NCBI GenBank assembly: GCA_003635315.1
Contig: PYJD01000018.1
Coordinates: 1 to 64,000, forward strand
Source: Candidatus Poribacteria bacterium
GTDB lineage: Bacteria > Poribacteria > WGA-4E > WGA-3G
Length of the DNA: 64,000 bases
Direction: 5' to 3'
A program made the translations under genes and the position numbers. This document shows, piece after piece, positions 26,610 to 42,412 of the stretch. Under the pieces are notes generated by a model. The model worked only from the letters and a program-made list of their open reading frames with translations, had not been told where the DNA came from and did no database searches. Position 1 is the first letter of the stretch, and each line of letters starts with the position of its first letter.

Positions 26610-28916
26610 CTATGTTGTAGATATTACATAGGTTTTTCCAATTTCGGTGCTGAATGTTATCACTGAATCAGATTCAGTTGTTTCAATTTCTTCACCTTCA
26701 CACGACACTGAAACAGTTATAGTCGATCGAACCGAACATTCCCTACCAAGTAGAGAAGTTATACTCGATTTGGTAAGAGAACCATTTTCCCATTCAATAT
26801 CCACTTGAAACCCACCTCGAGCACGTAATCCGCCAACATAACCTGTATCCCATGCTTTTGGTAGGGCAGGAAGTAGGTTAATTTCTCCGTCATGACTTTG
26901 AATAAGCATCTCAGCAATTCCTGCTGTGCCCCCAAAGTTTCCATCAATCTGGAATGGTGGGTGGGTATCAAACAGATTGGTCAAGGTACACCTTGCAAGG
27001 AGTGCATGTAAATGATTATATGCTTCTTCTGCATCCTCAAGTCGCGCTAAGAAATTCACTAACCATGCCCGACTCCATCCAGTTTGTCCACCACCATGTT
27101 GTAATCGATATTCCAAAGATTTCCTTGCTGCTTCTGCCAACTCAGGCGTACCACGTAGTGTGATTTGACAGCTGGGATGCAGACCATACATATGCGACAT
27201 ATGTCTATGTCCTGGTTCCGGTTCATCATAGTCATATATCCACTCCTGCAGTCTCCCTGTTTTCTCACTAATCTGTAAGGGTGCCAACCGTTCCAGAGAT
27301 GAAACTAATTCCTCACGGAAATCTGCATCAATACCAAGAACATCAAGACAATCTATACAATTCGTAAATAGTTCATGAATTATCTCAAGGTCAATTGTTG
27401 CTGCATATGTGAAGAGGGAACGTGTACCATCTGCTTTTTGGAAACTATTTTCAGGTGAATGGGAAGGATTCGTTACGAGTTTTCCGGCAAAAGGTGTTCC
27501 TTCTGGTGCTTCAATTAGAAAATCAAGCATAAAACGTGCAGCCCCTTTCATTAAGGGATATCCTTGCTTTCGAAGAAAATCTTCATCACCACCAAATAGG
27601 TAATGTTCCCAAACATGTTCACTTAACCATGCTGCACCCACAGGTGATATACCCCAAATGCCATCTGCGGGAGTTGTAAATCCCCAGATATCAGATAAGT
27701 GATGAACTACCCAACCACCTGCACCATAATGCCGTTTTGCTGTTTCACTACCGGGTTCAACGAGTGTATCCATATAATCAAAAAGTGGTTTATGACACTC
27801 AGCGAGATTGCATACTTCTGGAACCCAGTAATTCATCTGTAGATTTATATTGGTATGGTAATCACTGTTCCAAGGAGCTTTCATATGATGGTTCCAAACT
27901 CCCTGAAGGTTCGCTGGGAGACATCCCGGTCTTGAACTTCCCATTAACAGATAGCGGCCAAACTGGAAATATAAGGAAACCAGTCCTGGGTCAGATCCAC
28001 CCTCCTTCACCTTTGCTAAACGTCTATCTGTAGGTAGATTATCCGCATCGCTTGAACCAAGGTTTATGTCCACCCGTTGAAAAAGGGATTGATGTTCCTT
28101 GATGTGGTCAGAACGTAATTCATCATAGGATTTACTTTCTACAGATGTAAGAAATTCTTCACACAATTCATGTGGATTTCCAGTTGCATCTTTCTGATTG
28201 ATATAACTCGTTGCTCCAGACAGTAGTATTGTTACACTATTTGCTAAACGAATAGAGAAACTGTCACTATCCGATTCTATTAATCCATCATCAACAATCA
28301 TCTTTAGATATGCAGAAAAACGCAGACCACCATCACTACATTCACCATCAAGTCTTAATGTGTTGTCAGATATACTGGCAACCGATGCATCCTGTTCTCG
28401 GGTCATCGTAACATCAAAACTTACACCATCGGCTGAATCAGATTCAATTCTTATGACGATGATATCATCAACAGCAGTTGCAAAGACTTCTCTGTTGATA
28501 TTGTTATTACCGACCTGATAGGTTGTCTTTGCTATACCTGTATCTAAATCAAGTTGTCTGTGATACTCTGTAATTTCACCATGATTGGCAAAATCAATAA
28601 TAATGTCCCCTAAAGACTGATAGGATTTTATCCGATGAGGAACTCCTAACATTGTTTCGCCAGCAAGTTTTGTGGCTTCATCATTTTTGTCTTCAAACAA
28701 CAGTTGTTGAACAATTGGAAGTGCTTCCAACGCTTTAGGATTGTTTGTATCCTGAAAACAACCTTCCCAAAGACTCTCCTCATTTAGTTGAATTCGTTCC
28801 TGTTCAACGCCACCAAAAACCATTGCACCAAGTCGACCATTTCCAACAGGGAGGGCATCCGTCCACTCGTGTGCAGGTTTGTCATACCATAATACATAAC
28901 TATTTTTGTTAATCAT
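26610..28916 (-). CDS. Glycoside hydrolase family 95 (alpha-L-fucosidase type)
   Basis: The 768-residue protein begins with the GH95 N-terminal beta domain ([24 protein letters not shown], shown in two halves: [22 protein letters not shown]). A catalytic (alpha/alpha)6 barrel follows, with [26 protein letters not shown] sequence around residues 340-365 and [13 protein letters not shown]95 enzymes are inverting alpha-L-fucosidases or, less often, alpha-galactosidases. No signal peptide is visible, so a cytoplasmic role on imported oligosaccharides is likely, unless export is unconventional. ATG 28916 is preferred to a TTG two codons earlier. It is the gene just downstream of the FGE-paralogue cluster but separated from it by 58 bp, so cotranscription is possible. 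Confidence 0.9.
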
Positions 28917-28974
28917 AATCAATTTCTCTTTAGGTTATTTAATCAAAGTTTACTAAATGTGATTATCACAAGAA

Positions 28975-30495
28975 TCATGAATTCGTTTTTACCTTTGTAT
29001 CCCATACACATCTGAAGCCAATGTTTGCAGCGATTGTCCTTGTAAAAGTATCTAAAAACTTAGTCAGATAGGAGGCAGTAAATTCAGTAAGAATAGGTAT
29101 TCCACCCCATCGTGCCGAAGTATGGATGGGTTCAGATGAAATAAAGGATGTGCCACCTCGTAAAACATGATCACTATCGACCTCTCTAAAATTGCGAATT
29201 AAATTATCCAAGTCCTTCTTTGAGTCAACACCTGCGATAGGATTCAGAGATGTAGAGGAAGTATAAAAATCCATTACATATTCATCAAGGCACCATTCCC
29301 ATATATTCCCAACCATATCAAAAATACCGAAATTGTTTGCTGGATACTTACCTATAGATGTGGTTTTATCTGCATTCTCACTACAATTTGCCATGCTTGA
29401 ATTTATAGAATCACCCCAAGGATATTTCTGACCATTTAGCCCTCCACGTGCAGCTTTTTCCCACTCAGCTTCCGTTGGCAGACGTTTGCCAACCCATTGT
29501 GCATACGCCATTGCTGCATACCAACTTACATTCGTAACAGGATGATCAGCTGTTTCAGAAGGGAACTCATTGTTTTTCCAATGTCTCAGATACTCTCCAT
29601 CATGATATTTATCATATATGTAATTATACCGGACGTTTCCTTTATCATACCAATTTTGAAGATCTAACCACATTCTATCAGATGGTTTCCGCCATAATGG
29701 AGGCCATAATGGGTTTGCATCTATAAACGCCTTATATTTATCATACCATTTTTGAAGATCTAACCACATTCTATCAGATGGTTTCCGCCATAATGGGTTT
29801 GCATCTATAAACGCCTTATATTGTTCATTTGTAACTGGATATTTGTCAATATAAAAGGCATCTGTTTCGACAATATGTACGGGTGTTTCCCGTATATTTG
29901 CATTCTCATCACTATTACCCATCTGAAATTCCCCTGACGGGATTAAGACCATTTCTTGAAATTCCCCTGACGGGATTAAGACCATTTCTTCTGGAACTGC
30001 CACCTGTAAAGAGGTATCTGCGGGGTTAGATAATTCATTCACTATTGACGATGGTTTTTCTTCATGAGATGTCTGAGTCTGTAAGTTCTGAATATGATCC
30101 TCTCGTTTAATTGGATCTTTCAATGTATCATAAGCTTGATTTAAAATTTTACGCCACTGTTCTTGGGTTTTACCATCCTGACGGGGTAACCCACCTGCCT
30201 GTAATGATTCGGTGTAGTGTTTTATGTGAGCATTTTCAAGATTCTTAGCAATAGAAGATTCATCTTGCGATGTTAATTCTTCGATAGAAAATCCCAATAC
30301 CTCAAAGTAGTTAATCCTTTCCCCCACAGTTATCCCTAATGATTCGATTATCTCTAACGCTGTCTCTACTGAGAGACCATGGTTGTGGACTGCTTGTTGT
30401 AACAAACTCCTATTCTGTTCATCTGTAATTGTATGAGAGAGAGTTTTGAGTGTATTTACGACAGCAATAAAATCATCACGATTAGACATATCCAT
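28975..30495 (-). CDS. J-like/FGE-fold fusion protein, paralogue 1
   Basis: This 506-residue cytosolic protein is the last and longest of seven tandem paralogues. Residues 1-60 form a helical module (ITDEQNRSLLQQAVHNHGLS). Residues 62-140 resemble a J domain (YFEVLGFS, then helix and LPRQDGKTQEQW, then TLKDPIKRE), with R-Q-D in place of HPD. The FGE/SUMF1-type C-type-lectin fold runs from about residue 170 to the end (IPSGEFQMG, YPVTNEQYKAF, RLPTEAEWEKAARGG, GNIWEWCLDEY, VLRGGTSF, IGFRCV). The catalytic cysteine pair of true FGEs is absent. Two in-frame internal duplications are visible: EMVLIPSGEFQ twice in a row, and a segment of about 30 residues containing WRKPSDRMWLDLQ twice. Confidence 0.85.
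   Translation of the reverse strand: MDMSNRDDFIAVVNTLKTLSHTITDEQNRSLLQQAVHNHGLSVETALEIIESLGITVGERINYFEVLGFSIEELTSQDESSIAKNLENAHIKHYTESLQAGGLPRQDGKTQEQWRKILNQAYDTLKDPIKREDHIQNLQTQTSHEEKPSSIVNELSNPADTSLQVAVPEEMVLIPSGEFQEMVLIPSGEFQMGNSDENANIRETPVHIVETDAFYIDKYPVTNEQYKAFIDANPLWRKPSDRMWLDLQKWYDKYKAFIDANPLWPPLWRKPSDRMWLDLQNWYDKGNVRYNYIYDKYHDGEYLRHWKNNEFPSETADHPVTNVSWYAAMAYAQWVGKRLPTEAEWEKAARGGLNGQKYPWGDSINSSMANCSENADKTTSIGKYPANNFGIFDMVGNIWEWCLDEYVMDFYTSSTSLNPIAGVDSKKDLDNLIRNFREVDSDHVLRGGTSFISSEPIHTSARWGGIPILTEFTASYLTKFLDTFTRTIAANIGFRCVWDTKVKTNS
29641..29820. repeat. 96/84-bp tandem duplication inside paralogue 1
   Basis: Copy 1 (29641-29736) and copy 2 (29737-29820) are nearly identical. They differ at about one base, plus a 12-bp insertion in copy 1 that itself duplicates the local GGCCATAATGG. 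All length differences are multiples of three, so the frame stays open. It encodes two copies of a segment with YKAFIDANPLW and WRKPSDRMWLDLQ. Confidence 0.9.
29924..29989. repeat. Perfect 33-bp tandem duplication inside paralogue 1
   Basis: Two identical abutting 33-bp units (29924-29956, 29957-29989), each beginning TGAAATTCCCCTGACGGG, encode the 11-residue block EMVLIPSGEFQ twice at the start of the FGE-fold domain. Perfect identity points to a very recent event. Confidence 0.92.
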
Positions 30496-30552
30496 ATACC
30501 AGCAATTTAATGTGTAGATTTATCGAAATTTGGAATAAGACCAGTACCAAAA

Positions 30553-31929
30553 TTATGCTGTTGGTAACTTTACACAACGAAACCCAATTCTTGCAAGTGT
30601 TCGAGTGGGTTTATTCCTATAGCGAGATGCAGAACGGACAAAATGAGACGCATCAAGCCAAGAACCTCCGCGCATGACACGCGCATGTCCATTATCCATA
30701 TCACTATATTTTATCGATTCTACCGTATTTGCACCGCAAATTGGGTTCTTCCGTTTTGAGCTTGCATAATAATCTTCCTGATACTCATCAAGGCACCATT
30801 CCCAAACATTACCAATCATATCATGAATTCCATATCCGTTAGCAGGATACTCACCGACCGAAGTTGTTTCACCAATATAGCTATTATAATTAGCCTTAGT
30901 ATAATCAATTGATTCACCCCAAGGATAATTCTGTCCAGTCATCGAACCGCGTGCAGCTTTTTCCCATTCTGCCTCTGATGGGAGACGTTTCCCCACCCAT
31001 TCTGCATACGCCATTGCTGCATACCAACTCACCCATGTCACAGGATGTTCTGCTTTACTATCAGGGTATGTATTCTCATTCCAATGTTTAAGATAATCCC
31101 CGTCATGGTATTTTTCCTGTATATAAGATTTTCTATTTTTCTCCAAATGATACCATTTTGTTGGTTTTGTCCATTGAGGATTTTCATCTACAAACTCTTT
31201 ATATTCCGCATTGGTAACTAAACACTTGTCTATAAGAAAATCGTCAAGATACACGACATGAGCCGGTTTTTCCCTGTTACTAACTTTTTCATCATTACTC
31301 CCCATTCTGAAATCTCCTGCAGGTATATATGCCATGTCTGCGGGAACCTCAGAGTGAGTGAATACAGGTTTGTTTTCAACAATCGAAGATGCATGTACTA
31401 AATGTGCTTCTTCAGTAATTGAGATTGATTGATCCTGAATCTGTTGATCGTTTTCCTTATCAGTGGTATTAGTATCGGGATCATCATGAATGAGACTATC
31501 AGATGAATCTACTTCACTTAATATTTGTGATAGATGCTCTTCGCGTTTATGAGGATCTTTTAAAGTAGTGCGTGCATGATTTAGGATAATTCGCCACTGT
31601 TCTTGAGTTCTCCCGTCAGGACGAGGAAGTCCACCTGCTTTTAATGATTCTGTATAATGTTTTCTATGTGCTTCCTCTACTATTGATGAAATAGTAGTTT
31701 CATTTAGATTCTCAAATTCATGATTGGACAAACCCAAAACTCTAAAATAATTAAGAGTACCACCGATAATTAATCCTGTTTCTTTGATTATCTCATCGGC
31801 TTCTATTATTGATAGTCCATACTCCTGAACAGCTTGTTGTAAAAGCCCTATCCGTTGTTCCACGGAAATGGTCTTGGATGCAGATCTAAACAAGTTGATA
31901 GCATCGATAAATTGTTCACGTTTTGCCAT
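30553..31929 (-). CDS. J-like/FGE-fold fusion protein, paralogue 2
   Basis: 458 residues with the same layout: helical module (1-56), J-like module (about 57-132; YFRVLGLS, GGLPRPDGRTQEQW, TLKDPHKREEH), an acidic linker (130-200) and an FGE-fold domain (about 202-455; YIPAGDFRMGS, PVTWVSWYAAMAYAEWVGK, GNVWEWCLDEY). The J-loop reads R-P-D, the closest to HPD in the set. The terminal segment MRGGSWLDASHFVRSASRY shows no cysteine where active FGE has its redox pair. It lies 57 bp before paralogue 1 and 58 bp after paralogue 3, all one direction. No signal peptide. Confidence 0.85.
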   Translation of the reverse strand: MAKREQFIDAINLFRSASKTISVEQRIGLLQQAVQEYGLSIIEADEIIKETGLIIGGTLNYFRVLGLSNHEFENLNETTISSIVEEAHRKHYTESLKAGGLPRPDGRTQEQWRIILNHARTTLKDPHKREEHLSQILSEVDSSDSLIHDDPDTNTTDKENDQQIQDQSISITEEAHLVHASSIVENKPVFTHSEVPADMAYIPAGDFRMGSNDEKVSNREKPAHVVYLDDFLIDKCLVTNAEYKEFVDENPQWTKPTKWYHLEKNRKSYIQEKYHDGDYLKHWNENTYPDSKAEHPVTWVSWYAAMAYAEWVGKRLPSEAEWEKAARGSMTGQNYPWGESIDYTKANYNSYIGETTSVGEYPANGYGIHDMIGNVWEWCLDEYQEDYYASSKRKNPICGANTVESIKYSDMDNGHARVMRGGSWLDASHFVRSASRYRNKPTRTLARIGFRCVKLPTA

Positions 31930-31987
31930 TAATACAGATCCAAAAGATGCACTCAGTTATTTTGTATATGCTAAAATTGAAGACATT

Positions 31988-33277
31988 TTACCCTTGAAGA
32001 TCCTTGACACATCGAAACCCGTAGCTGTAATATGTAAAATCAGGGGTAGCACTTCCCTTATATCCCACTCTAAGTGATCGTTCACTACTTGCCCAAGAAC
32101 CCCCACGTAACACACGATTGCTATTGATCGCTAAGTAGGTATTCACGATATGCTGAATCTCTTCAGCAGATATACCGGGTCTTTGTTCTGGTGAATTGTA
32201 ACTATAAGGATTAAGGCACCATTCCCAGACATTTCCTACCATATCATAGACGCCATACTCATTTGGAGGGTAGGTCCCAACAGGGGTTGTACTCCCAACT
32301 ACCATTCCGTAATTTGCCAGGTCGTTAGTAATATTATCACCCCATGGATACGTTTTCTCAGTTAATCCACCGCGTGCAGCTTTTTCCCATTCAATATCTG
32401 TCGGAAGACGTTTCTCTTTCCATTGAGCATAAGCCATTGCGGCATACCAACAAACATCTACAACCGGATCATTCCCTCTATTTCTTGGATATTTATTGCC
32501 GTTCCAAGAACTAAGGTAATTACCGTTGTGGTATTTATTGGAAATGTTGTTCTTCTGCCATTGTTCGTTTTCTGTCAGAAAAACACTGAATTCTGTATTC
32601 GTCACAGGATATTTGTCAATTAGGAATCCATTTAAGTAGATATTTTGTAGTGAAATATCATTACCATTTATATCCTCCCTTTGAGATCCCAGCATAAATA
32701 CACCAGAGCGGATCAAAACCATATCTGTAGGTATTTCAATTTCAGCAGGATCAGTAATTTTGTTAGGGGTTGGTTCAATCAGCGATTCACTTGTCTGAAT
32801 AGAATTCGGTTCATTACGCTGAATCATTGGTGTATTCGGAGTTGTAAGTTCTACAGATTCTTCATGAAGTAGGGATGAGATGTATTCGTTTCTCTTACCT
32901 GTATCAATCAGTATATCCCGTGCTTGATTCAGTAGCATCCGCCACTGGTCTTCAGTCCTTCCATCTGATCTTATCCGTGCTCCAGCGGTTAACGATGCTT
33001 TATACAGATTATCATGTGCGGATCTAACAATCGCAGCAATTGACTGATCTTCCATACCTTGAATTTCCTCAAGGGATAGTCCCAATATGTCGAAATGATT
33101 AATCTCATCACCGACAACGATTCCTAATGAATCCAATATCTCAATACCTTCTCCAATAGAGAGATTGTATATATTTACAGCCTGTTGCAACAAACCTCGT
33201 CTCTGATAGTCTGTTATTGTTGCAGACACCGATTTAAAAGTGTTGATGATCTGAATGAATTCTTCACGTTTTGCCAT
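31988..33277 (-). CDS. J-like/FGE-fold fusion protein, paralogue 3
   Basis: 429 residues: helical module, J-like module (HFDILGLS, ARIRSDGRTEDQW, ILIDTGKRNEY; loop R-S-D), then FGE-fold domain (VLIRSGVFMLGSQ, AYAQWKEKRLPTDIEW, GNVWEWCLNPY, VLRGGSWASSERSLRVGYK, YGFRCVKD). The residues between RGGSW and GFRCV differ from every sister protein, whereas the framework around them is the same. No catalytic cysteines. The third-position pattern of the neighbours is kept, so it is not a recent import. Confidence 0.85.
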   Translation of the reverse strand: MAKREEFIQIINTFKSVSATITDYQRRGLLQQAVNIYNLSIGEGIEILDSLGIVVGDEINHFDILGLSLEEIQGMEDQSIAAIVRSAHDNLYKASLTAGARIRSDGRTEDQWRMLLNQARDILIDTGKRNEYISSLLHEESVELTTPNTPMIQRNEPNSIQTSESLIEPTPNKITDPAEIEIPTDMVLIRSGVFMLGSQREDINGNDISLQNIYLNGFLIDKYPVTNTEFSVFLTENEQWQKNNISNKYHNGNYLSSWNGNKYPRNRGNDPVVDVCWYAAMAYAQWKEKRLPTDIEWEKAARGGLTEKTYPWGDNITNDLANYGMVVGSTTPVGTYPPNEYGVYDMVGNVWEWCLNPYSYNSPEQRPGISAEEIQHIVNTYLAINSNRVLRGGSWASSERSLRVGYKGSATPDFTYYSYGFRCVKDLQG

Positions 33278-33341
33278 GTTTAGTAAGTCGATTTTATATT
33301 CAGTATTCTATGAAATTATTCAATTGATAGGACCATTCCCA

Positions 33342-34634
33342 TCAGATATACTTGACACAACGAAAACTGTAAGTAGATAAAGTATCTGTTGGATTACTTT
33401 TGAGTCGTTGTGATACACGTGCCCCTAAAGCATCGAAACCCCAAGGACCACCGCGCAATACTCGTTCGAATGTTATTTGCCTATAGTTATCTACGACCCA
33501 TTCTATGCTATTTGGTCCATAAAATGGATTATTCTGTGGGGCATCATTATAGAAATCCACATTATATGCATCAAGACACCATTCCCACACATTTCCACAC
33601 ATGTCATAAAGTCCATAATGATTGGCAGGTATAAGACCAATTGGTAAAGTATCTTCACCATCTAAATACTTATCAATATTATCCGAATCTTCGACATTAC
33701 CCCATGGATAGTTCTTACCATCCAATCCGCCGCGTGCAGCTCTTTCCCATTCTGCTTCAGTTGGTAGACGTTTACTCACCGACTCTGCATAAGCCATCGC
33801 GGCATACCAACTAACCTGTGTCACTGGATGGTCTCCTTCCCCAGGTGGGTACATATTCATTTGCCAATCCTTCAAATATAAACCATCATGTAAATTCGAA
33901 CTGATATGAGTAAAATTAGATTCAGGTTTCTGCCACTCAGGATTAGTATTCAGAAATTCTCTAAATTTTCTATTTGTCACAGGATATTTATCCATAAGAA
34001 ATGCATTAACAAAAACTGTGTGAATAGGTTGTTCATCCTCCTCAGCATCTACATGTTCACTCCCCATTTGAAATTCTCCTGCTGGTATATATACCATATC
34101 ATCAGGTACATCAATACCATCCGGTACAAATGTACTACTTAAGGCATGAGGTATATTTGTATTTGCATCGGATGAATCCAATTCTTGTGATGGTTCAGCA
34201 CGTAAATCCTGTATTTTTTCCTGTTGTAGAATGGAAATATATTCACTTCTTTTTAGTGGATCTGTTATTGTATCTTTTGCTTGATTCAAAAGGTTTCGCC
34301 ACTCTACTTCTGATCTACCATCAGACCGTGGACGACCACCTGCATTCAAAGAAGTTCTATAAAGTCTGTCGTGAATAGATTCAATGTGTGCAACGATATC
34401 AGCTTCACTGAGATTTTCCAGTTCTTCAACTGAGATTCCTAACACATCAAAAAAGCTATCTTGTACTCCAACAATTAATCCTGATGATTTCAGAATATCA
34501 TCCGCTTCATCTGTAGTGAGACCATATTCTTGCACACCTTGTCGCAAAAGACCAATACGTTGTGCATCAGTGATGATTGGAGATAATACTTTGAGCGTAT
34601 TGATCACATTAATAAATTCTTCATATTCACGCAT
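33342..34634 (-). CDS. J-like/FGE-fold fusion protein, paralogue 4
   Basis: 430 residues. J-like module: FFDVLGISVEELENL, helix, GGRPRSDGRSEVEW, TITDPLKRSEY (loop R-S-D). The FGE-fold part runs from YIPAGEFQMGSE to YSFRCVKYI, with RGGPW replacing the usual RGGSW and SESVSKRLPTEAEWERAARGG-like framework around residue 285. GAGGA lies 6 nt before the ATG. It is most similar in its N-terminal half to paralogue 5 (GLTTDEAD, LIVGxQDSxFDVLGIS), suggesting duplication between neighbours. Confidence 0.85.
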   Translation of the reverse strand: MREYEEFINVINTLKVLSPIITDAQRIGLLRQGVQEYGLTTDEADDILKSSGLIVGVQDSFFDVLGISVEELENLSEADIVAHIESIHDRLYRTSLNAGGRPRSDGRSEVEWRNLLNQAKDTITDPLKRSEYISILQQEKIQDLRAEPSQELDSSDANTNIPHALSSTFVPDGIDVPDDMVYIPAGEFQMGSEHVDAEEDEQPIHTVFVNAFLMDKYPVTNRKFREFLNTNPEWQKPESNFTHISSNLHDGLYLKDWQMNMYPPGEGDHPVTQVSWYAAMAYAESVSKRLPTEAEWERAARGGLDGKNYPWGNVEDSDNIDKYLDGEDTLPIGLIPANHYGLYDMCGNVWEWCLDAYNVDFYNDAPQNNPFYGPNSIEWVVDNYRQITFERVLRGGPWGFDALGARVSQRLKSNPTDTLSTYSFRCVKYI

Positions 34635-34676
34635 TCTTGATCCTCAAATAGGTCTTTAACAAGAGATATAATCGGT

Positions 34677-35897
34677 TTACTGGTAAATTTGATTCACACA
34701 ACGAAATCCTACTACACTTGCTGTTTTCCTTGGTGATGTGCCTGTTCTGTAGGATATTCGTAGATTATTAACGGAAGAATACCAAGAACAGCCTCTTATC
34801 ACGCGTTTCTTTCTTGGGTTTGTTTGTGTCTCAATAATACTCTCAATACTCCCACCAGCAACCGGATTAATAGATGGTGAATCATGATAGAATCCTTCAT
34901 CCCACTGATCTAAACACCATTCATATACATTTCCTACCATATCGTAAACTTCATAACCGTTTGCGGGATAATTGCCAATTGGGGTGGTCTCACCTATGTT
35001 ACTACCGAAATTTGCAGATGATTTATCCACCGAATTACCCCATGGATATTTCTTCCCTACTAAACCTCCACGTGCGGCTTTTTCCCATTCAGCTTCTGTT
35101 GGTAATCTCTTACCTAACCATTGAGCGTATGCCATAGCAGCATACCAACTCACCCATGTTACTGGATGATCTTCTTTTCCATCTGGAAATTTATTTCTCA
35201 CCCATGTTTTCAAGTAATCTCTATCACGAAGTTTTCTTATCTTATAAATATCAAATCCATTAGCAGTTTTCCATTGAGGGTTCGCGTCCAAAAATAATTT
35301 GTACTGTAAGTTTGTTACTGGAAATGTATCTATATAAAATGCGTCAACATAAACAGTATGGACCGGTTTCTCATTTTTGTTAGCTTTGAAATCATCACTC
35401 CCCATCTGAAACTCCCCTTCTGGGATTAAAACCATTTTATCGGAACTTTGATGGGTATTGCCTTTATCTATGGGAAGCTGTTGTAATTGTATTGTTGAAA
35501 CGTGTAAATTACGTAATACGGGGTCTATTAATTTATCTCGTGTCTGATTTAGTAGTGTCCGCCACTCTTCTTCTGTCCTACCATCGGTTCTTGGACGACC
35601 CCCTGCATTCAAAGATGTTCGGTAAAGTTTGGCGTGGACAGATTCAACATACGCGACGATATCAGTTTCACTAAGTCCTTCAAGGTCTTCAATCGAGATT
35701 CCTAACACATCAAAATAACTATCTTGTTCTCCAACAACTAATCCTGATGTTTTCAGAATACCATCCGCTTCATCAGTGGTAAGGTTATATTCGTGAATAC
35801 CTTGACGTAGAAGACCAATACGCTGCTCTTCTGTTATGTTCGGTGATAGTGTCTTTAATCTATTTACAAATGCTATGAATTCTTTGCTTTCTGCCAT
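34677..35897 (-). CDS. J-like/FGE-fold fusion protein, paralogue 5
   Basis: 406 residues, the shortest, with only a brief linker between the J-like module (YFDVLGISIEDLEGLSE, GGRPRTDGRTEEEW, KLIDPVLRN; loop R-T-D) and the FGE-fold domain (VLIPEGEFQMGSDD, VTWVSWYAAMAYAQWLGKR, GNVYEWCLDQW). Its terminal block begins IRGCSWYSSVNNLRISYR. The Cys here sits in the RGGSW position, not at the FGE redox-pair positions, so it does not restore the active site. Cytosolic by sequence. Confidence 0.85.
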   Translation of the reverse strand: MAESKEFIAFVNRLKTLSPNITEEQRIGLLRQGIHEYNLTTDEADGILKTSGLVVGEQDSYFDVLGISIEDLEGLSETDIVAYVESVHAKLYRTSLNAGGRPRTDGRTEEEWRTLLNQTRDKLIDPVLRNLHVSTIQLQQLPIDKGNTHQSSDKMVLIPEGEFQMGSDDFKANKNEKPVHTVYVDAFYIDTFPVTNLQYKLFLDANPQWKTANGFDIYKIRKLRDRDYLKTWVRNKFPDGKEDHPVTWVSWYAAMAYAQWLGKRLPTEAEWEKAARGGLVGKKYPWGNSVDKSSANFGSNIGETTPIGNYPANGYEVYDMVGNVYEWCLDQWDEGFYHDSPSINPVAGGSIESIIETQTNPRKKRVIRGCSWYSSVNNLRISYRTGTSPRKTASVVGFRCVNQIYQ

Positions 35898-35951
35898 AGA
35901 TAGAATGATTTATATAAGAAAAAATAGTAAAAAATTAATAAAATATGTAGA

Positions 35952-37337
35952 TTATTTAGATCTTACACAACGGAATCCAATACTGGAACTTGTTAAATCA
36001 GGTGTGTTTCTATGTCGATATGAAACTCGTGTGTTTCTCGGTGTACTTACAAATGACCCACCCCGCACGACTCTCGGCGTAATTACGCTTGCGAAATCAG
36101 CTAAAATATCTGCTAAATATCCATCAGCAATTGGATTATTGTATGGAGAATTAGTATAGTAATTTTCATCCCATAAATCTATACACCATTCAAATACGTT
36201 ACCAGCCATATCATAAATACCAAAACCATTTTCAGGATATTGCCCAACTTCTGTCGTATTACTGATATATAACTCGTTGTTCAGATGTCTTAGACTCAGC
36301 GTATTTCCCCAAGGATATTTCATACCTTCTAAACCTCCGCGTGCAGCTTTTTCCCATTCCGCTTCAGTTGGTAGTCGTTTGCCTTTCCACTGTGCGTAAG
36401 CCATTGCTGCATACCAACTAACCCAAGTTACAGGATGATGATCTTTATTTTTACGGAACTTGTTTCTATTCCAGTTCTTTAAGTAATCACCATCATGAAA
36501 TTTCTTGTGAATACTGGAAGTTTCTTCAGTATTATCATGCCATTTTTTAGGTTTTCCCCATTCAGGGTTGGCATTAATAAACTCTCTATATTCTGCATTA
36601 GTGACAGGATATTTATCAATATAGAATGTATCAATGTATACAGTATGTAAAGGTTTTTCGTCTTTGTATGCCTCATTGTCCTCACTTCCCATTTGAAATT
36701 CTCCTGCAGGAATGAGTGCCATACCATCCTCTATTATGGGTTGTGATAATATGCATTCTTCAAGTGTATCAGTTCCTTTTATTGATTCATCTTCAGGGAG
36801 TACTTTTACGGATGGCAATACACTTGACTGTTCTGAAGGTTGTGTTGCAATTGTTTCTTGTATTGTATCCGTCTCTTGTAATGGAATATCTTCAGAAAGG
36901 ATTTCTGTTGGTGGTGGGACATCGGTTTGTAATATTTCAATATGAGATATTCGTTTTTCAACATTCTTCAGCGTATCACGCGCTTCATTTAGTATAATAC
37001 GCCACTGCTCCTCGGTCCTTCCATCTGAACGAATACGTCCTCCTGCTTTTAAGGATGCGTTATATAGCTCTCTGTGTCTCAGATCAACTTCTGCTGTAAT
37101 TATGTCCTCGTTTTGGTTCTGTATATATTCTATGGATAAACCTAATACATTAAAATAATCTATCTGCTCACCGATAATTAATCCTGATGATAGAATTATG
37201 TTCTCTGCTTCAGCCATTGATAAACCATGTTGCTGAATACCTCTTCGTAGAAGACCGATCCGTTGTTCATCGGTAATAGTTGGAGATACTGTTTTGAATT
37301 CATTAATAAAGTCTATATACTCATTAAGATTTAGCAT
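35952..37337 (-). CDS. J-like/FGE-fold fusion protein, paralogue 6
   Basis: 461 residues with the longest acidic Glu/Thr/Ser-rich linker (about residues 140-205) between the J-like module (YFNVLGLSIEYIQN, GGRIRSDGRTEEQW, TLKNVEKRISH; loop R-S-D) and the FGE-fold domain (ALIPAGEFQMGSED, AYAQWKGKRLPTEAEW, GNVFEWCIDLW, VVRGGSFVSTPRNTRVSYR). In this copy the DP of the third J-helix end is NV. The hypervariable terminal block again differs from all sisters. It lies 31 bp after paralogue 7. Confidence 0.85.
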   Translation of the reverse strand: MLNLNEYIDFINEFKTVSPTITDEQRIGLLRRGIQQHGLSMAEAENIILSSGLIIGEQIDYFNVLGLSIEYIQNQNEDIITAEVDLRHRELYNASLKAGGRIRSDGRTEEQWRIILNEARDTLKNVEKRISHIEILQTDVPPPTEILSEDIPLQETDTIQETIATQPSEQSSVLPSVKVLPEDESIKGTDTLEECILSQPIIEDGMALIPAGEFQMGSEDNEAYKDEKPLHTVYIDTFYIDKYPVTNAEYREFINANPEWGKPKKWHDNTEETSSIHKKFHDGDYLKNWNRNKFRKNKDHHPVTWVSWYAAMAYAQWKGKRLPTEAEWEKAARGGLEGMKYPWGNTLSLRHLNNELYISNTTEVGQYPENGFGIYDMAGNVFEWCIDLWDENYYTNSPYNNPIADGYLADILADFASVITPRVVRGGSFVSTPRNTRVSYRHRNTPDLTSSSIGFRCVRSK

Positions 37338-37368
37338 ACTCTAATTATGATATAGAAGCTTAGATAGT

Positions 37369-38613
37369 TCATAAAACGGAAGGAGGTAGAGGAGATTTAT
37401 CCCTTTGTAAGACCTGATCTACACATCGAAACCCAATTACATTCAGTGAAAACCATGGAGATTCCGCATTTCGTTTTGCTGTTCTCACTAATAAGGCAGG
37501 TATACGCCATGAACCTCCCCGTAATACACGATTGGATTTAATATCTAAGAAGTTGTTGTTCAACCGGTCAAAAGTATCATCACCAGCAATAGGGTTACGA
37601 TACGGTGAATTTCTATAATAATGTTTCTCATATCTATCAAGACACCATTCCCATACATTGCCACACATGTCGTAGAGTTGATATCCATTAGCAGGATATT
37701 TCCCAACTGGTGTGGTACTTCCCTCATTCCAGTCGTAATTCGCTTCTGTAGAATCTAATGAATTACCGTGCGGATATTGTGTGTTAATTAGACCACCCCG
37801 AGCAGCTTTCTCCCATTCAGCTTCAGTTGGAAGACGTTTACCTTGCCATTGAGCATAAGCCATAGCGGCATACCAACTTACATTGACAACAGGATAATTC
37901 GCTTCCCCACTGGGAAAATTATTCTGACGCCAATGCTTAAGATAGTCAATATCACAATACTTTTTTGGTATTTCACGTCTACTCCACTGTGGATTCGCAT
38001 CAAGGAATTCCTTAAATTGGCCATTCGTTACAGGATATTGGTCTATAAAGAAATCGTCGAGAAATACTGTATGAATCGGCTGTTCATCATCAAATGCGTT
38101 GTTATCATCACTACCCATTTCGAACTCACCTTCATGAATAAGGGACATATTCTTATGACCTGTAGTACGCGAGGCTATAGCAATGAAGGTATCTTTTTCC
38201 TGGATTGTGGTTATATATTCGTGCCTTTTCTGCGGGTCAGTAAGCGTATCTCGTGCTTGATTTAATAACCTACGCCACTGTTCTTCTGACCTTCCATCTG
38301 GTCGTGGGCGACCACCTGAATTCAATGATTCTCTATAGAGTTTCATGTGTGTTGAGGCAACACGATCTGCAATCTCCGAATTGGTTTTACTTTCTATGTC
38401 TTCGTATAATATACCTAAAACTTCAAAATAATTTTCCTGAAGTTCTCCAATTACAAGTCCCGATAATTCCAATATTCTATTTGCATCTTCAACGGTCAGA
38501 CCGTGTTGATGTACTGCTCTACGTAAGAGACCTTTACGTTGTTCCTCCGAAATAATAGGTGAGACGACTCTAAAATCATCAACAAATGAGATAAATTCAT
38601 CACGAATGGACAT
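37369..38613 (-). CDS. J-like/FGE-fold fusion protein, paralogue 7
   Basis: 414 residues, the paralogue nearest the dnaK-like gene (67-bp gap). J-like module: YFEVLGILYEDIESK, GGRPRPDGRSEEQW, TLTDPQKRHEY (loop R-P-D). The FGE-fold domain runs from LIHEGEFEMGSDD to IGFRCVDQVLQ, with LRGGSWRIPALLVRTAKR in the variable block. AGGA precedes the ATG at 8 nt. The retained DPxKR after the third helix is the most J-domain-like in the set. No catalytic cysteine pair. Confidence 0.85.
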   Translation of the reverse strand: MSIRDEFISFVDDFRVVSPIISEEQRKGLLRRAVHQHGLTVEDANRILELSGLVIGELQENYFEVLGILYEDIESKTNSEIADRVASTHMKLYRESLNSGGRPRPDGRSEEQWRRLLNQARDTLTDPQKRHEYITTIQEKDTFIAIASRTTGHKNMSLIHEGEFEMGSDDNNAFDDEQPIHTVFLDDFFIDQYPVTNGQFKEFLDANPQWSRREIPKKYCDIDYLKHWRQNNFPSGEANYPVVNVSWYAAMAYAQWQGKRLPTEAEWEKAARGGLINTQYPHGNSLDSTEANYDWNEGSTTPVGKYPANGYQLYDMCGNVWEWCLDRYEKHYYRNSPYRNPIAGDDTFDRLNNNFLDIKSNRVLRGGSWRIPALLVRTAKRNAESPWFSLNVIGFRCVDQVLQRDKSPLPPSVL

Positions 38614-38680
38614 TCGTAAGTTCCTAAGGTAAGATATACTACTAATCTAGGCTTAAGTAAATGTTATTGGATAAGGGAAT

Positions 38681-40276
38681 CTATTCAACTGTAAGTTCCT
38701 GCAGATCTGTTTGGGCTTGGGAGACCTCTTCTTCATTAAGGGTTGGTCGTTCAATTATTGAAAAGATATCAAAAACGGCTGTAGGACCATCATCTGTCAA
38801 TGATTTTGCAGTTACCTCAAGATTTTGGTCTAAATTATATTTATAATTTACCTCAATTGGAGATCCTTGTGGCAATCCCATAGGTAACTCAAGTATACAT
38901 TCTCCAAGCTTATATTCCTCAAAAAATGGGATGTGCTCCTTAAGCTGATCTTGTTCAAGTCCTTGAACTACCTCAATTAGTACAGTGGGTTGGTTTTCAT
39001 CAACAGTCAAGAATTGATCAGCAATTTCACACGGTACTGCAGTCATTTTTGGGATCATCACATGAATAATATAATCTCGTTGTGAATTGAGGACAACAAG
39101 TCCCAGATTATGTGTTGCACCATCAGTTACAGTCACCTTAGGTGCACCATCAGATCCAATAAACCGTTCAATAACTGCTTCTGGCATTTCTTGAGTATCA
39201 ACACTATCATCAGTGATTTGGCGAAGAGTTCCTTGAATTGCCGCACCTAATGCCACCACTTCATCAGGATTAACTTCATGTGGATTAATCTCTTTATCGC
39301 TTATAGTGCGGATCATCTCCTGTACCATAGGCATCCGTGTCGAACCCCCAACCAATAAGATCTTGTCAATATCTGTCCAAGACAATTCTGCCTCTGATAG
39401 TACTAACTCGCACAAAGTTCGACATCTTTCGAGGAGATCTGTCGTAAGTTCTTCAAATTTCTCTCGGAGTAATTCCACACGAGTTGTCTTCCCATTATAT
39501 CCACATACAATTAATGCTCTTTGCCGTTGAGATAAAGATTCTTTAGCTCCAATTGCATCAAGTTGAAGGTCTTGATAGGTATGAAGATCATCCAGAGGAT
39601 TCTCTCCATGTTCTATCTCAAACATCTCAGCAACATAGGTAATAATTTTGTCGTCCCAATCTTTGCCGCCTAACCTATGGTCACCATTCGTCGCTAACAT
39701 CTGTATTTCCGAATCGGAAACTTGCATAATTGTTACATCTAATGTACCACCACCCAGGTCGAATACAAATACAATCTGGTTATTACCAAGTTGATCCATT
39801 CCATAAGCAAGAGCTGCTGCGGTAGGTTCGTTTAGGACTTGAAGCACATTAAAACCGGCAATTTTACCTGCATTACGTGTGGCTTCCCTTTCTGCGTCGT
39901 GAAAATACGCAGGTACAGTAATTACAGCATCACTTACCTCTTCATTAAGATAGATTTGAGCATCTTGTTTTAATTTTCGCAAAATTAGTGCGGATAGTTC
40001 TTCAGGAGAATAGTCTTTTTCATCAAATGTACGAAAGAAATTCGTCCTTGATTTACCCATCTCTCTTTTGATAAACTCAACAATCTGTTCAGGGACAGCT
40101 CTGGCATTCTGCTTAGCAATTTTTCCAACAGTCACAAGATTGTCTTCGAACATTACGACAGATGGTGTAATTCGATCACTTTCCAAATTGGGAATGATTT
40201 CAGGTTGTCCATGCTCATTTATATGTGCTATCACAGAAAAAGTCGTTCCTAAATCTATTCCGACAACTTTACCCAT
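38681..40276 (-). CDS. Hsp70 (DnaK-like) chaperone, lid-less
   Basis: This 531-residue Hsp70 has a complete ATPase domain: GIDLGTTFSVIA (phosphate 1), NEPTAAALAYG, FVFDLGGGTLDVTI (phosphate 2) and LLVGGSTRMPMVQEM (adenosine). A beta substrate-binding domain follows (about 385-500; VLIEVVQG, then PMGLPQGSPIEV). It is roughly 100 residues shorter than housekeeping DnaK because the helical lid is missing and replaced by an acidic tail ending QELTVE. It starts immediately after the grpE-like stop (TAAATG) and is followed by the seven J-like/FGE genes. That makes it a dedicated chaperone rather than the cell's main DnaK. Substrate release and client choice would be unusual without the lid. Confidence 0.88.
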   Translation of the reverse strand: MGKVVGIDLGTTFSVIAHINEHGQPEIIPNLESDRITPSVVMFEDNLVTVGKIAKQNARAVPEQIVEFIKREMGKSRTNFFRTFDEKDYSPEELSALILRKLKQDAQIYLNEEVSDAVITVPAYFHDAEREATRNAGKIAGFNVLQVLNEPTAAALAYGMDQLGNNQIVFVFDLGGGTLDVTIMQVSDSEIQMLATNGDHRLGGKDWDDKIITYVAEMFEIEHGENPLDDLHTYQDLQLDAIGAKESLSQRQRALIVCGYNGKTTRVELLREKFEELTTDLLERCRTLCELVLSEAELSWTDIDKILLVGGSTRMPMVQEMIRTISDKEINPHEVNPDEVVALGAAIQGTLRQITDDSVDTQEMPEAVIERFIGSDGAPKVTVTDGATHNLGLVVLNSQRDYIIHVMIPKMTAVPCEIADQFLTVDENQPTVLIEVVQGLEQDQLKEHIPFFEEYKLGECILELPMGLPQGSPIEVNYKYNLDQNLEVTAKSLTDDGPTAVFDIFSIIERPTLNEEEVSQAQTDLQELTVE

Positions 40277-41011
40277 TTATTTTCCTTTTTGTTCATCAGT
40301 AGAATGTCCACTATTGTCATTTTCAGAGTCTGCTGTGGAGGACACATAACGATAAATGGTTACATCTTCTGGACGGAACACTTTCTCACGCCAATAGAAT
40401 CCAATTTTATGTACTTCTGCTACTTTCTGATCCAAATTTGGATCGTCTGTAGAAATGACTTTCCGTGTCTTGTGTAACTGCCTATCCAATGTATCTGGTG
40501 AATCCTTATAAGGGGTTACATCTATTCGATATAAAACTTCTTCAAGTTCAAACCGAAAATTCTGTAAATTTCTACTATATTGACCCAATTCATTTGATAG
40601 TGTATTATCACTATTCTCATCAATAAGGTTCGTAAGTTGAGATTCAAGCGATACAAAACTATCGTAAAGTTGAATTAAGTTATGAATAACCGGTTTATGT
40701 AGTACTTCAAGTAGAAAACTCTCTTTATAGTCCTTCATCTCTGTATACATTTTATCAAACATCTGGACTTGATTCTGATTTCCAGATATATGTTTCTCAA
40801 ATAATTCGAGTAATACCGCCAATGATTGGGTAATTTCTGTAAGTGTATTTGTTTGATGTACTTCCAAGTTATCCATTGGAATTTCCTCATCTGTATCTAC
40901 TGTATCATCAGAATCTATTGACTGTACATCCACATCATCAGGATTATCAGCATCTAAATTTGACTCACTATCCAAGATTGCTTTTAATTTTGCGTCAAGG
41001 TCGTTATTCAT
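40277..41011 (-). CDS. GrpE-like nucleotide exchange factor
   Basis: The 244-residue protein has an acidic disordered N-terminus (about 1-55), a long helical segment (about 60-170) and a compact C-terminal part with KIGFYWREKVFRPEDVTIYRY, which matches the GrpE beta-wing end (GFYWREKVxRPxxVxVYxY). Classical GrpE exchanges ADP on DnaK. Overall similarity is low, so it is a divergent member. ATG 41011 is chosen over a TTG four codons upstream. It is the first gene of the cluster and abuts the dnaK-like start. The acidic tail ends TDEQKGK. Confidence 0.7.
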   Translation of the reverse strand: MNNDLDAKLKAILDSESNLDADNPDDVDVQSIDSDDTVDTDEEIPMDNLEVHQTNTLTEITQSLAVLLELFEKHISGNQNQVQMFDKMYTEMKDYKESFLLEVLHKPVIHNLIQLYDSFVSLESQLTNLIDENSDNTLSNELGQYSRNLQNFRFELEEVLYRIDVTPYKDSPDTLDRQLHKTRKVISTDDPNLDQKVAEVHKIGFYWREKVFRPEDVTIYRYVSSTADSENDNSGHSTDEQKGK

Positions 41012-41225
41012 TTTACTGCTCAAACTGAATCCTTACATACACCATGCTTCTCATGAAGATTTCCAGGTTTAACCTGATATCATAGTAGTTTTCTAGGTGG
41101 TGAAAACAATATCTGTCCAACTTATAAACGCCAACTATCTCGGATTGTTCACATAAACATAGATTCACATTGAATTAATCTTTGATGTGAATAGGATCAT
41201 TGAATATTTAAGGTGTTATAGATTG

Positions 41226-41254
41226 ATTATACAACGGATTTTGTAGCATGTCAA
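41226..41254 (-). promoter_or_regulatory. Consensus promoter of the grpE-dnaK-FGE cluster
   Basis: On the minus strand TTGACA (41254-41249), a 17-bp spacer and TATAAT (41231-41226): both boxes perfect and ideally spaced. Transcription would start near 41219, giving a 5' leader of about 208 nt. Confidence 0.8.
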
Positions 41255-41279
41255 TGTTAACGAAATGCGTATGTATATA

Positions 41280-41306
41280 GTATAACTCTACTTTAAAGAG
41301 TTATAA
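41280..41306. promoter_or_regulatory. CIRCE-like inverted repeat
   Basis: GTATAACTC (41280-41288), a 9-nt spacer and GAGTTATAA (41298-41306). The CIRCE operator bound by HrcA is TTAGCACTC-N9-GAGTGCTAA; 13 of 18 arm positions agree, and the ACTC-N9-GAGT core and spacing are exact. It lies 25 bp upstream of the -35 box of a promoter for grpE/dnaK-like genes. Confidence 0.45.
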
Positions 41307-41650
41307 AAAATTCAAAAGATAGTTGATTCTGAGGATAAATATGTGGAGAGTAGATAGATCTATTTTAGACTTATACCATTTCTATTAATTTTTATCCCAT
41401 TACCTAATCAACGCCAAATGCGCGTATGGCATTTGTCGGGACTAAAGACATCAATATCAGACAACTATAAACCGCTAAATTGACACCTATGGGGTTGAGG
41501 TACGAAACCCAACATGAGATCCTGTTCTAAAAATAAATTGAAGAAATTAAAAAAACAGACATCATATATACGAAAAGAGATTGACACAAGCGTAAATATA
41601 CGTTACAATAACATATAGAGAACTGCTATTATACTTATACTAATAATTAA

Positions 41651-41692
41651 TATAGGATAAATCAATATGATTATAGGATAAATCAATATGAT
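41651..41692. repeat. Perfect 21-bp tandem duplication
   Basis: Two identical units, 41651-41671 and 41672-41692, each beginning TATAGGATAAATCAATATG. Noncoding as far as can be seen. Confidence 0.9.
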
Positions 41693-41865
41693 TAAAGAAA
41701 ATATACACAGTTATACAAATGTCAATGTCCCACATCTTATTCGAAAATAATGTGTTAAGAAATCTGTCAAGAAAACTTTTTATTCTTTTATAGAAAATCG
41801 TAAATTGGCTGTAAACATAGACGGGGACAGACCTAACAGCGACTATACTAAAATTGGTGTAACAG

Positions 41866-41893
41866 AAAAAAGTTACGATTTCGTAACTTTTTT
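41866..41893. terminator. Bidirectional terminator-like hairpin
   Basis: AAAAAAGTTACG (41866-41877) pairs perfectly with CGTAACTTTTTT (41882-41893) around ATTT. The A and T tracts make it functional in either direction. No gene end is close, so it may end an unrecognised transcript. Confidence 0.6.
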
Positions 41894-42412
41894 ACATAAA
41901 TACAGAAAACTATCTAATGACTATCCAAAACATTCATAATTATCTTATAAACAAAAACAGCATCACCTTTACCTTTTCTGAGAAAAAAAGTTCCATTGAT
42001 GGTTTATGGGGATGTCATCTATTAGGGTACGTCCTAAAATATTATGTCACAATAATGAGATATTATTTTTTAGAAAATGTATTACAAATGTCTGTATCGG
42101 ATGGTATCGAAAAAAAAAGAATAACGACACAAAATCATACAATTCAAGAATTGTTACTATTCAAAAAAAACACCGATGAACGCAGACTGTGACAGGGCGG
42201 ACAGCCGTATTACTAATGACACACAATGTGTCAAAAAGTGTAACATTTTTAACATAATAAATATAAAAGATTACTTATGTGAATATTGAAATACCAATAA
42301 TTTAGAGTGTTTTTTATACTAAGTTCTATATAATTAGTTCCCATTACGAACACTCTTTATAGTCGCACTGATTATGGGTGGGAATCTCTTAACAGCATTC
42401 ATTATAGAGTCA

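Follow-up and report, generated by a model that had tools for sequence, protein, structure and literature searches.

Nine minus-strand genes in the window, a 64,000-nucleotide stretch of a Candidatus Poribacteria contig, probably encode a private Hsp70 machine (we put the probability at about 0.6), in which each adaptor would use a changed J-Hsp70 contact to recruit Hsp70 to the target of its C-terminal domain. The cluster is likely to be private, apart from the main chaperone of the cell, because the HPD "key" is missing from the adaptors and the "lock" residues of the Hsp70 are changed.

Layout, distribution and chromosomal site of the array

The array opens with a grpE-like gene, followed by a dnaK-like gene for a lid-less Hsp70 and by seven paralogues, with intergenic gaps of 0-67 bp. 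Each paralogue joins helical and J-fold modules to an FGE/C-type-lectin domain. This gene content, order, spacing and architecture had been described in the first-pass annotation and were confirmed in the sequence. The grpE-like gene at the head of the array (40277..41023, minus strand, 248 aa) clears the curated Pfam cut-off of GrpE (PF01025, 32.6 vs. 25.8 bits) and directly adjoins the gene of the lid-less Hsp70 (38681..40276, minus strand, 531 aa; PF00012, E 5e-119). The same helical and J-fold module opens all seven adaptors (seven module matches), which are encoded on the minus strand and end in an FGE-fold domain (PF03781). These are adaptor 1 (37369..38613, 414 aa, PF03781 E 1.7e-62, PF00226 E 0.17), adaptor 2 (35952..37337, 461 aa, E 3.1e-66), adaptor 3 (34677..35897, 406 aa, E 1.8e-62), adaptor 4 (33342..34634, 430 aa, E 4.2e-58), adaptor 5 (31988..33277, 429 aa, E 9.3e-59), adaptor 6 (30553..31929, 458 aa, E 5.5e-64) and adaptor 7 (28975..30495, 506 aa, E 1e-56), the last of which also matches HscB (TIGR00714, E 7e-5). 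Adaptor 7 shows small internal duplications where its FGE domain begins, with a tandem repeat at 29924-29990. Upstream of the grpE-like gene, a putative sigma-70-type promoter (TTGACA-17-TATAAT, 41226..41254, minus strand) matches the motif perfectly. It is the sole 12/12 match in 28800-42420, with 0.031 expected per shuffled region.

The array occupies a fixed chromosomal site, which is empty in other genomes. In the window it is flanked upstream by a sulfatase gene (PF00884; 42413..43705, minus strand) and downstream by a GH95 glycoside hydrolase gene (26610..28922, minus strand), both outside the machine. Upstream of the array, 18 loci have a sulfatase; downstream of it, 15 have GH95. In array-less genomes the two are still neighbours in 8/10 loci.

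All relatives of the array belong to Candidatus Poribacteria. The module was found in 29 of 84 genomes, and the cluster-type Hsp70 in all 29 of these, whereas the 55 module-less genomes hold it only as one truncated copy in a single genome. This supports the idea that a dedicated Hsp70 co-occurs with the J-fold adaptors. As for direct neighbourhood, dnaK is present in 25/33 module loci but in none of the fetched stretches of the other 8, three of which reach contig ends. A grpE gene adjoins dnaK or is fused to it in just 18/25 dnaK-bearing loci and is therefore not obligatory locally. Up to 13 module matches occur in one genome, and the largest number of intact adaptors in a fetched locus is 8 (L046). 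A contig scan, whose loci (L104-L135) did not enter the other analyses, placed 32/32 in Poribacteria, which is no proof of absence elsewhere since it used a single pattern.

J fold and Hsp70 contact residues

In adaptor 1, the module (38194..38613, minus strand) comprises helical residues 1-57 and J-fold residues 58-140, including the loop that replaces HPD, as delimited by an alignment of 108 modules, a structural model and loop conservation. Prediction of the N-terminal 145 residues supports a four-helix J fold, not the lack of one that the first-pass annotation had named as counter-evidence. In the module alignment the HPD motif between helices II and III is present in 0/108 modules. Its place is taken by an RxDG loop in 105/108, and this loop is better conserved than any other part of the module. 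Without HPD in any of the 108 modules examined, the adaptors are not ordinary J proteins. PMC13012618 describes HPD conservation as universal and the motif as critical for activating Hsp70, partial exceptions being seen in mutants only.

With an E-value limit of 0.1, the J-domain profile PF00226 matched 17/108 modules, the best at E 0.014. Bit scores were reported for two matches, 12.5 and 13.4, both short of the curated cut-off (27.8); every reported score being too low, a known J family was rejected as identity of the module. Among solved structures, a profile search returned HscB as the best match (E 0.2), and two of the 108 modules weakly match Pam16 (best E 0.024). The charge of helix II differs modestly (mean -0.39, range -3 to 2, vs. 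0, 2 and 4). For the helical module, the fold search of the 145-residue model returned no identity, its matches covering almost only residues 55-145.

The window Hsp70 consists of a nucleotide-binding domain (residues 1-353), a substrate-binding beta domain (about 382-492), which is present in the cluster Hsp70, and one C-terminal helix (515-526 in the predicted structure) without an alpha-helical lid. Only 132-138 residues follow the linker in the 20 of 24 cluster copies that were measured, compared to 240-256 in canonical DnaK. The residues that contact HPD (R167, L391 and L392) are gone from the cluster Hsp70 and kept in the canonical DnaK of the same genomes. R167 is retained in 0/24 cluster copies vs. 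21/21 canonical DnaKs and is replaced by Q in 22/24, the window Hsp70 among them; L391 and L392 are each found in 0/23 copies having a linker. The catalytic residues are kept (D194, T199 and E171 in 24/24, K70 in 23/24). A segment of lobe I of the nucleotide-binding domain is short, with 12 residues in 23/24 copies vs. 31 in canonical DnaK. The site counts exclude a split dnaK (L049) and a 1209-aa protein (L072).

C-terminal domains and age of the paralogues

FGE is the commonest of several C-terminal domains on the adaptor module. In some adaptors it is replaced by WD40, ankyrin, membrane/Ig-like (weak matches), BPD_transp_1, DctQ or T2SSG domains, so that the FGE-fold C-terminus first described holds for all seven window genes and is merely the most frequent choice among their relatives. 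The architectures show that one adaptor module takes FGE, WD40 and ankyrin domains as interchangeable heads. In a catalytic FGE, the cysteine pair is presumably to be expected in the eight residues following GGSW. A cysteine in this stretch was found in 0/107 FGE rows of the fetched loci (HMM alignment; no positive control in the genome), and the pair is also absent from 19 other FGE rows of the window genome. The domains look non-catalytic, and their suggested role as binding scaffolds is supported. By inspection of the sequences, the adaptors carry no signal sequence.

The nearest relative lies within the same array for only 5/86 modules and 1/86 FGE domains, and recent tandem expansion was rejected on these grounds. 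Adaptors are orthologous between species with conserved order (266/296 comparisons concordant, among array pairs with three or more reciprocal hits). The dN/dS of the FGE domain is 0.163 (19 orthologue pairs) vs. 0.188 for the adaptor module. Distances of the cluster Hsp70 track those of canonical DnaK (Mantel r 0.83, 18 genomes, without G012, G028, G031 and the genome of the window). The paralogues are thus old, conserved in order and under purifying selection, and a rapidly diversifying receptor repertoire is therefore unsupported; the first-pass annotation had proposed a diversified set of receptors or effectors. A search of the window's own genome, which is 90.2% complete, gave no match to a reverse transcriptase (RVT_1, PF00078). 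A diversity-generating retroelement or hypervariable receptor was rejected as the main mechanism, given the lack of RVT_1 in the genome, the low dN/dS and the nearest relatives of the paralogues in other species.

Related systems, alternative explanations and the proposed machine

Within the literature searched, no described system has this exact composition, as was claimed at the outset, but its theme has been described. The work on GTPase-centric GAP1-N2 systems (Kaur et al. 2020; PMC7159879) reports HSP70 and GrpE genes that neighbour fusions of a DnaJ domain with another domain, a subset with a second Hsp70, and FGS (=FGE) domains in some planctomycete systems. The cluster shares these features, including the pairing of HSP70 and GrpE in the 18 loci mentioned above. 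In that theme, the DnaJ domain sits on FNIII-repeat proteins, whereas here an HPD-less J fold sits on FGE, WD40, ankyrin, membrane and transporter domains; no DnaJ-FNIII-repeat fusion was among the C-terminal fusions identified. The cluster also differs in its host, Poribacteria, and in its number of adaptors per locus (the eight of L046). A GTPase/GAP1-N2 component was not identified among the nine window genes, the flanks being scanned in part.

The cluster further resembles HscA-HscB and HscC-DjlB/DjlC, in which a second Hsp70 works with J proteins of its own on a narrow range of clients. As described in PMC8215388, HscC lacks residues 76-101 in lobe I, the same region that is short in the cluster Hsp70, a deletion shared by many other bacterial DnaKs; HscA and HscC work without a nucleotide exchange factor, and HscA retains its lid. 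In contrast, the cluster mostly has grpE, lacks the lid, has lost HPD and R167 together and uses one Hsp70 for many adaptors. Pam16/Magmas is also a J fold without HPD. It acts by binding a true J protein, whereas the cluster contains no HPD-bearing partner. The FGE/FGS-fold variable proteins of diversity-generating retroelements likewise carry a non-catalytic-looking FGE fold at the C-terminus behind an N-terminal adaptor (PMC8195603), but the window genome has no reverse transcriptase, and the paralogues are orthologous and under purifying selection.

Three other explanations were weighed. A chaperone-gated conflict system for immunity or self-killing, such as Kaur et al. describe, in which FGE, WD40 and ankyrin domains sense an invader and Hsp70 sets the threshold of an effector, appears unlikely. 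The GAP1-N2 theme itself and the proposal of FGS domains as invader sensors (PMC7159879 and PMC8195603) speak for it, as do the patchy presence of the array at a fixed site, the J module paired with an Hsp70-vWA fusion in the variant loci L064 and L066, and its position beside a caspase-PEGA-FGE gene in L067, L069 and L070. However, no effector domain was recognised in the nine window genes, these caspase proteins appear by inspection to start with signal sequences, and the conserved adaptor order, the FGE dN/dS below that of the module, the absence of RVT_1 from the genome and the Hsp70 distances following DnaK argue against it. PADLOC was unconvincing as well: a known defence system was rejected, the matches of the core proteins being weak and partial (adaptor E 0.0011, Hsp70 6e-5, GrpE-like none). 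The sole good score, for an ankyrin variant, is owed to generic repeats.

It is rather improbable that the J-fold module has ceased to act on Hsp70 and forms, together with the helical module, a scaffold for adaptor oligomers with Hsp70 as their folding helper. HPD-less J-like proteins that regulate instead of activate exist (Pam16), and the loss of both HPD and R167, the weak Pam16 matches and an ORF of L064 in which an Hsp70 nucleotide-binding domain is fused to the helical module and to GrpE, a hint that docking may fall to the helical module, would fit such a scaffold. The strong conservation of the HPD-equivalent loop and the consistent, not random, replacement at position 167 are instead expected of a kept contact. 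A service to the neighbouring sulfatase and GH95, with Hsp70 holding sulfatases unfolded and FGE domains maturing them, is hardly credible, despite the frequent flanking genes and a CSPSR motif in the window sulfatase, which we take to be of the Cys-type. Sulfatase maturation was judged unlikely, as the FGE domains lack the cysteines (a count without positive control), the sulfatase-GH95 pair mostly persists where the array is missing and the adaptors show no signal sequence on inspection.

In the private Hsp70 machine that we favour, the J-fold module would dock close to position 167 of the cluster Hsp70 and may trigger ATP hydrolysis without HPD. The change on both sides of the contact would insulate the machine from the normal DnaJ/DnaK of the cell. 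The GrpE-like protein presumably resets the Hsp70, whose lid-less substrate domain may contact briefly a small, fixed set of clients picked by the adaptors. The self-contained machine first proposed is retained in its dedicated Hsp70 and J-fold adaptors, which are inherited together; it is HPD-less, FGE is not universal, and grpE and dnaK are not always local. As a guess, its role could be the upkeep or disassembly of particular protein assemblies, some of them at the membrane. More tentatively, and with rather less than even odds, the cluster could be a natural orthogonal Hsp70 channel, in which an RxDG loop and Q167 with a polar linker replace the HPD-R167 contact on both sides, with HPD-independent activation, a plug-in library of adaptors including transporter-subunit grafts, and no cross-talk with the housekeeping DnaK-DnaJ.

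The joint loss of HPD and its partner residues, with the ATPase residues kept, would illustrate how the specificity between J proteins and Hsp70 can be rewritten. Such a lineage would offer a ready-made orthogonal chaperone pair, and sponge-symbiont biology gains a widespread but unstudied machine.

Organization of the array and its adaptor module

The first-pass annotation described nine minus-strand genes (28975..41023) in the order grpE-like, dnaK-like and seven paralogues, here called adaptors, and both number and order were confirmed. The first gene encodes GrpE, above Pfam's own cut-off, the second was assigned to Hsp70 by Pfam, and all seven remaining genes carry a terminal FGE/C-type-lectin-fold domain (FGE, PF03781) in the Pfam analysis. 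Adaptor 1 shares 45-54% identity with the other six. The interval between the sulfatase gene and grpE spans 1.4 kb and contains a single perfect match to a sigma-70-type promoter (41254-41226), with 0.031 expected in mononucleotide shuffles. One terminator-like site was found inside the array (minus strand, 33660-33642). Because of the promoter match upstream and this one internal site, the array is likely one transcription unit. An A/T-flanked palindrome upstream of grpE (41866-41893), read by eye, could be a bidirectional terminator; it was not recovered by the promoter and terminator scan. Within 29650-29990, adaptor 7 shows a perfect 33-bp tandem duplication (29924-29990) and, just after it, a further in-frame duplication, imperfect and some 30 residues long, found by reading.

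In adaptor 1 the module consists of a helical part (residues 1-57) and a predicted J-fold (58-140). HPD was found in none of the 108 modules compared. The loop in its place reads RxDG in 105 of them, and the three exceptions all belong to one genome (G028). This loop and the beginning of helix III (96-118) form the best-conserved stretch, where 12 of 23 sites reach at least 90% and mean conservation is 0.80, compared with 0.55-0.66 elsewhere in the module.

Co-inheritance, chromosomal site and age

A scan of genome contigs with the adaptor alignment (a single pattern) revealed 32 loci, all in Poribacteria. The window genome (4.3 Mb, 50 contigs, 90.2% complete) was analyzed together with 58 relatives. 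The module is present in 22 of these 59 genomes, and the cluster-type Hsp70 occurs in the same 22 and is absent from the other 37 (by reading of the Hsp70 table). For independent genomes, agreement this complete would have a chance probability of 1.1e-16, but these genomes are not independent. Among 25 further genomes of the phylum, seven carry the module, each with a match at least 61% identical to the window Hsp70. Among the 18 lacking the module, one (G061) contains a frame of 311 aa that is 75% identical across residues 1-281, as well as a 698-aa Hsp70 with 49% identity. Altogether, the module was found in 29 of 84 genomes and 3 of 21 genera, all in one family.

All 34 other family genomes of the 59-genome set have a full-length match to canonical dnaK (E 8.1e-264 or better). 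The window genome, which is 90% complete, gave no such match despite ordinary HPD-bearing dnaJ genes (C36:101500-103500, L099), and this is probably an assembly gap. A 1209-aa protein of the window genome with a partial Hsp70 match (contig C46, L072) seems to belong to another family. The phylum has further Hsp70-like proteins, both long and short (L101, L102, L103) and including some of about 855 and 909 aa, which appear to form a separate family.

Of 34 genomic stretches fetched and mapped, 33 contain the module and 25 of these the cluster dnaK; the stretches were picked by module, so the genome-level counts are the fair test. In the dnaK-bearing loci grpE adjoins dnaK in 17, is fused in one and was not detected in seven. 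Eight of the module loci lack dnaK: two are transporter fusions (L055, L058), five are parts of arrays (L041, L044, L050, L054, L057) and one is a variant gene (L068); L044, L050 and L068 reach contig ends. Stops or frame changes interrupt several array genes in L043, L044, L048, L049, L051 and L059, including dnaK in L049, and may represent assembly errors, decay or phase variation. Some arrays also include a DUF2971 gene (L046:15464-16255, Pfam on this copy; relatives in L051 and L057).

The array occupies a fixed chromosomal site, with a sulfatase gene upstream in 18 loci and a GH95 gene downstream in 15. GH95 was also found in 10 of 12 array-less genomes queried. In eight of these ten, GH95 and the sulfatase lie 0.06-2.8 kb apart (about 64 bp in G001), and the stretch has no match to grpE, dnaK or the module; one of the remaining two lies at a contig end and one has no sulfatase in reach.

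Among 86 full adaptors with helical, J-fold and FGE parts, only 5 modules and 1 FGE domain have their nearest relative in the same array. When reciprocal best hits were compared across arrays, gene order was kept in 266 of 296 comparisons, which cover the 49 of 91 array pairs with at least three such hits. In 19 orthologue pairs with at least 80% identity, the module had a dN/dS of 0.188 and FGE one of 0.163. Cross-array relatives, kept order and low dN/dS argue against a fast-evolving repertoire. Distances between cluster Hsp70s track those between canonical DnaKs (Mantel r 0.83, 0 of 2000 permutations, 18 genomes). Together with the kept order and the relatives in other arrays, this suggests that the array is old and mostly vertically inherited, with losses.

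Alternative heads and variant loci

The module is also joined to other C-terminal domains (heads). Fusions to WD40 propellers occur once each in L039, L045, L048, L052 and L056 and twice in L046, and a fusion to ankyrin repeats occurs in L064. Helical, Ig-like and membrane regions follow the module in L061, L064, L065 and L066 (weak Pfam matches, partly by reading). It is fused to an ABC permease whose neighbour encodes a solute-binding protein (L055:9064-11130) and to TRAP DctQ next to DctM (L058:7501-8577). A search of 5.8 billion proteins found 158 relatives; among the 120 listed, query included, the heads were FGE (109), WD40 (5), BPD_transp_1 (1) and T2SSG (1), and four had no precomputed family.

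One ORF (L064:4331-6313) combines an Hsp70 nucleotide-binding domain, the helical module and GrpE without a substrate-binding domain. It has K at Hsp70 position 167, and the neighbouring modules are without RxDG. This fusion is a hint that the three parts meet physically; it was seen in a single genome and might be an artefact of assembly. Among variant loci, L067 and L069 encode large membrane-FGE proteins that have the J module but not the helical one, L064 and L066 an Hsp70-vWA fusion and L070 a longer Hsp70 without vWA; in L067, L069 and L070 a caspase-PEGA-FGE gene is next door.

Hsp70 contact residues and likely function

Hsp70 sites were compared between 24 cluster Hsp70s, 21 canonical DnaKs (one per module-bearing genome of the 59-genome set, window genome excepted) and three second-type Hsp70s, two of them with a vWA domain; the split L049 copy and the 1209-aa L072 protein were left out. 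The R167 position is R in all 21 canonical and all three second-type proteins, compared with Q (22), H (1) or K (1) in the cluster copies. N147 is kept in none of the 24 cluster copies, E206 in one (K or R in 18) and E217 in six, and the linker leucines L391 and L392 in none of 23, the L064 copy having no linker. All three second-type proteins keep E206; none of the three has E217, and most of their linker leucines are missing as well. The sites that distinguish the cluster copies from both other groups are therefore R167, N147 and E206. Of the catalytic residues, D194, T199 and E171 are present in every one of the 24 cluster copies and K70 in 23.

According to published work (PMC13012618), the partner of HPD residue D35 is R167 and that of H33 is L391, and DnaJ D35N rescues DnaK R167A. 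The same work reports that in some systems part of the activation persists with an HPD/AAA variant, although it forms no stable complex in simulations. By analogy, the cluster may represent a natural counterpart of this two-sided change. No publication describing this cluster was recognised within the literature searched; the nearest account is section 29 of PMC7159879. The Poribacteria single-cell paper (PMC3909097) treats eukaryote-like repeats, and "chaperone", "dnaj" and "heat shock" are absent from its main text.

The adaptors have in common a J-like module whose Hsp70 contact appears rewritten, whereas most of their heads are folds that bind proteins. J proteins generally supply Hsp70 with targets in this way, one Hsp70 working with several adaptors that have different binding heads. 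Because of the shared module and the stable orthologous adaptors, we favour an insulated client-targeting Hsp70 machine (probability about 0.6). The main rival use, a chaperone-gated conflict system, appears rather unlikely, and its mechanism would be largely the same; a fixed client set fits stable orthologous adaptors better than an arms race does. The putative two-sided change of contact, as read from sequence, is what makes an unusual Hsp70 operon the basis of a hypothesis open to experiment.
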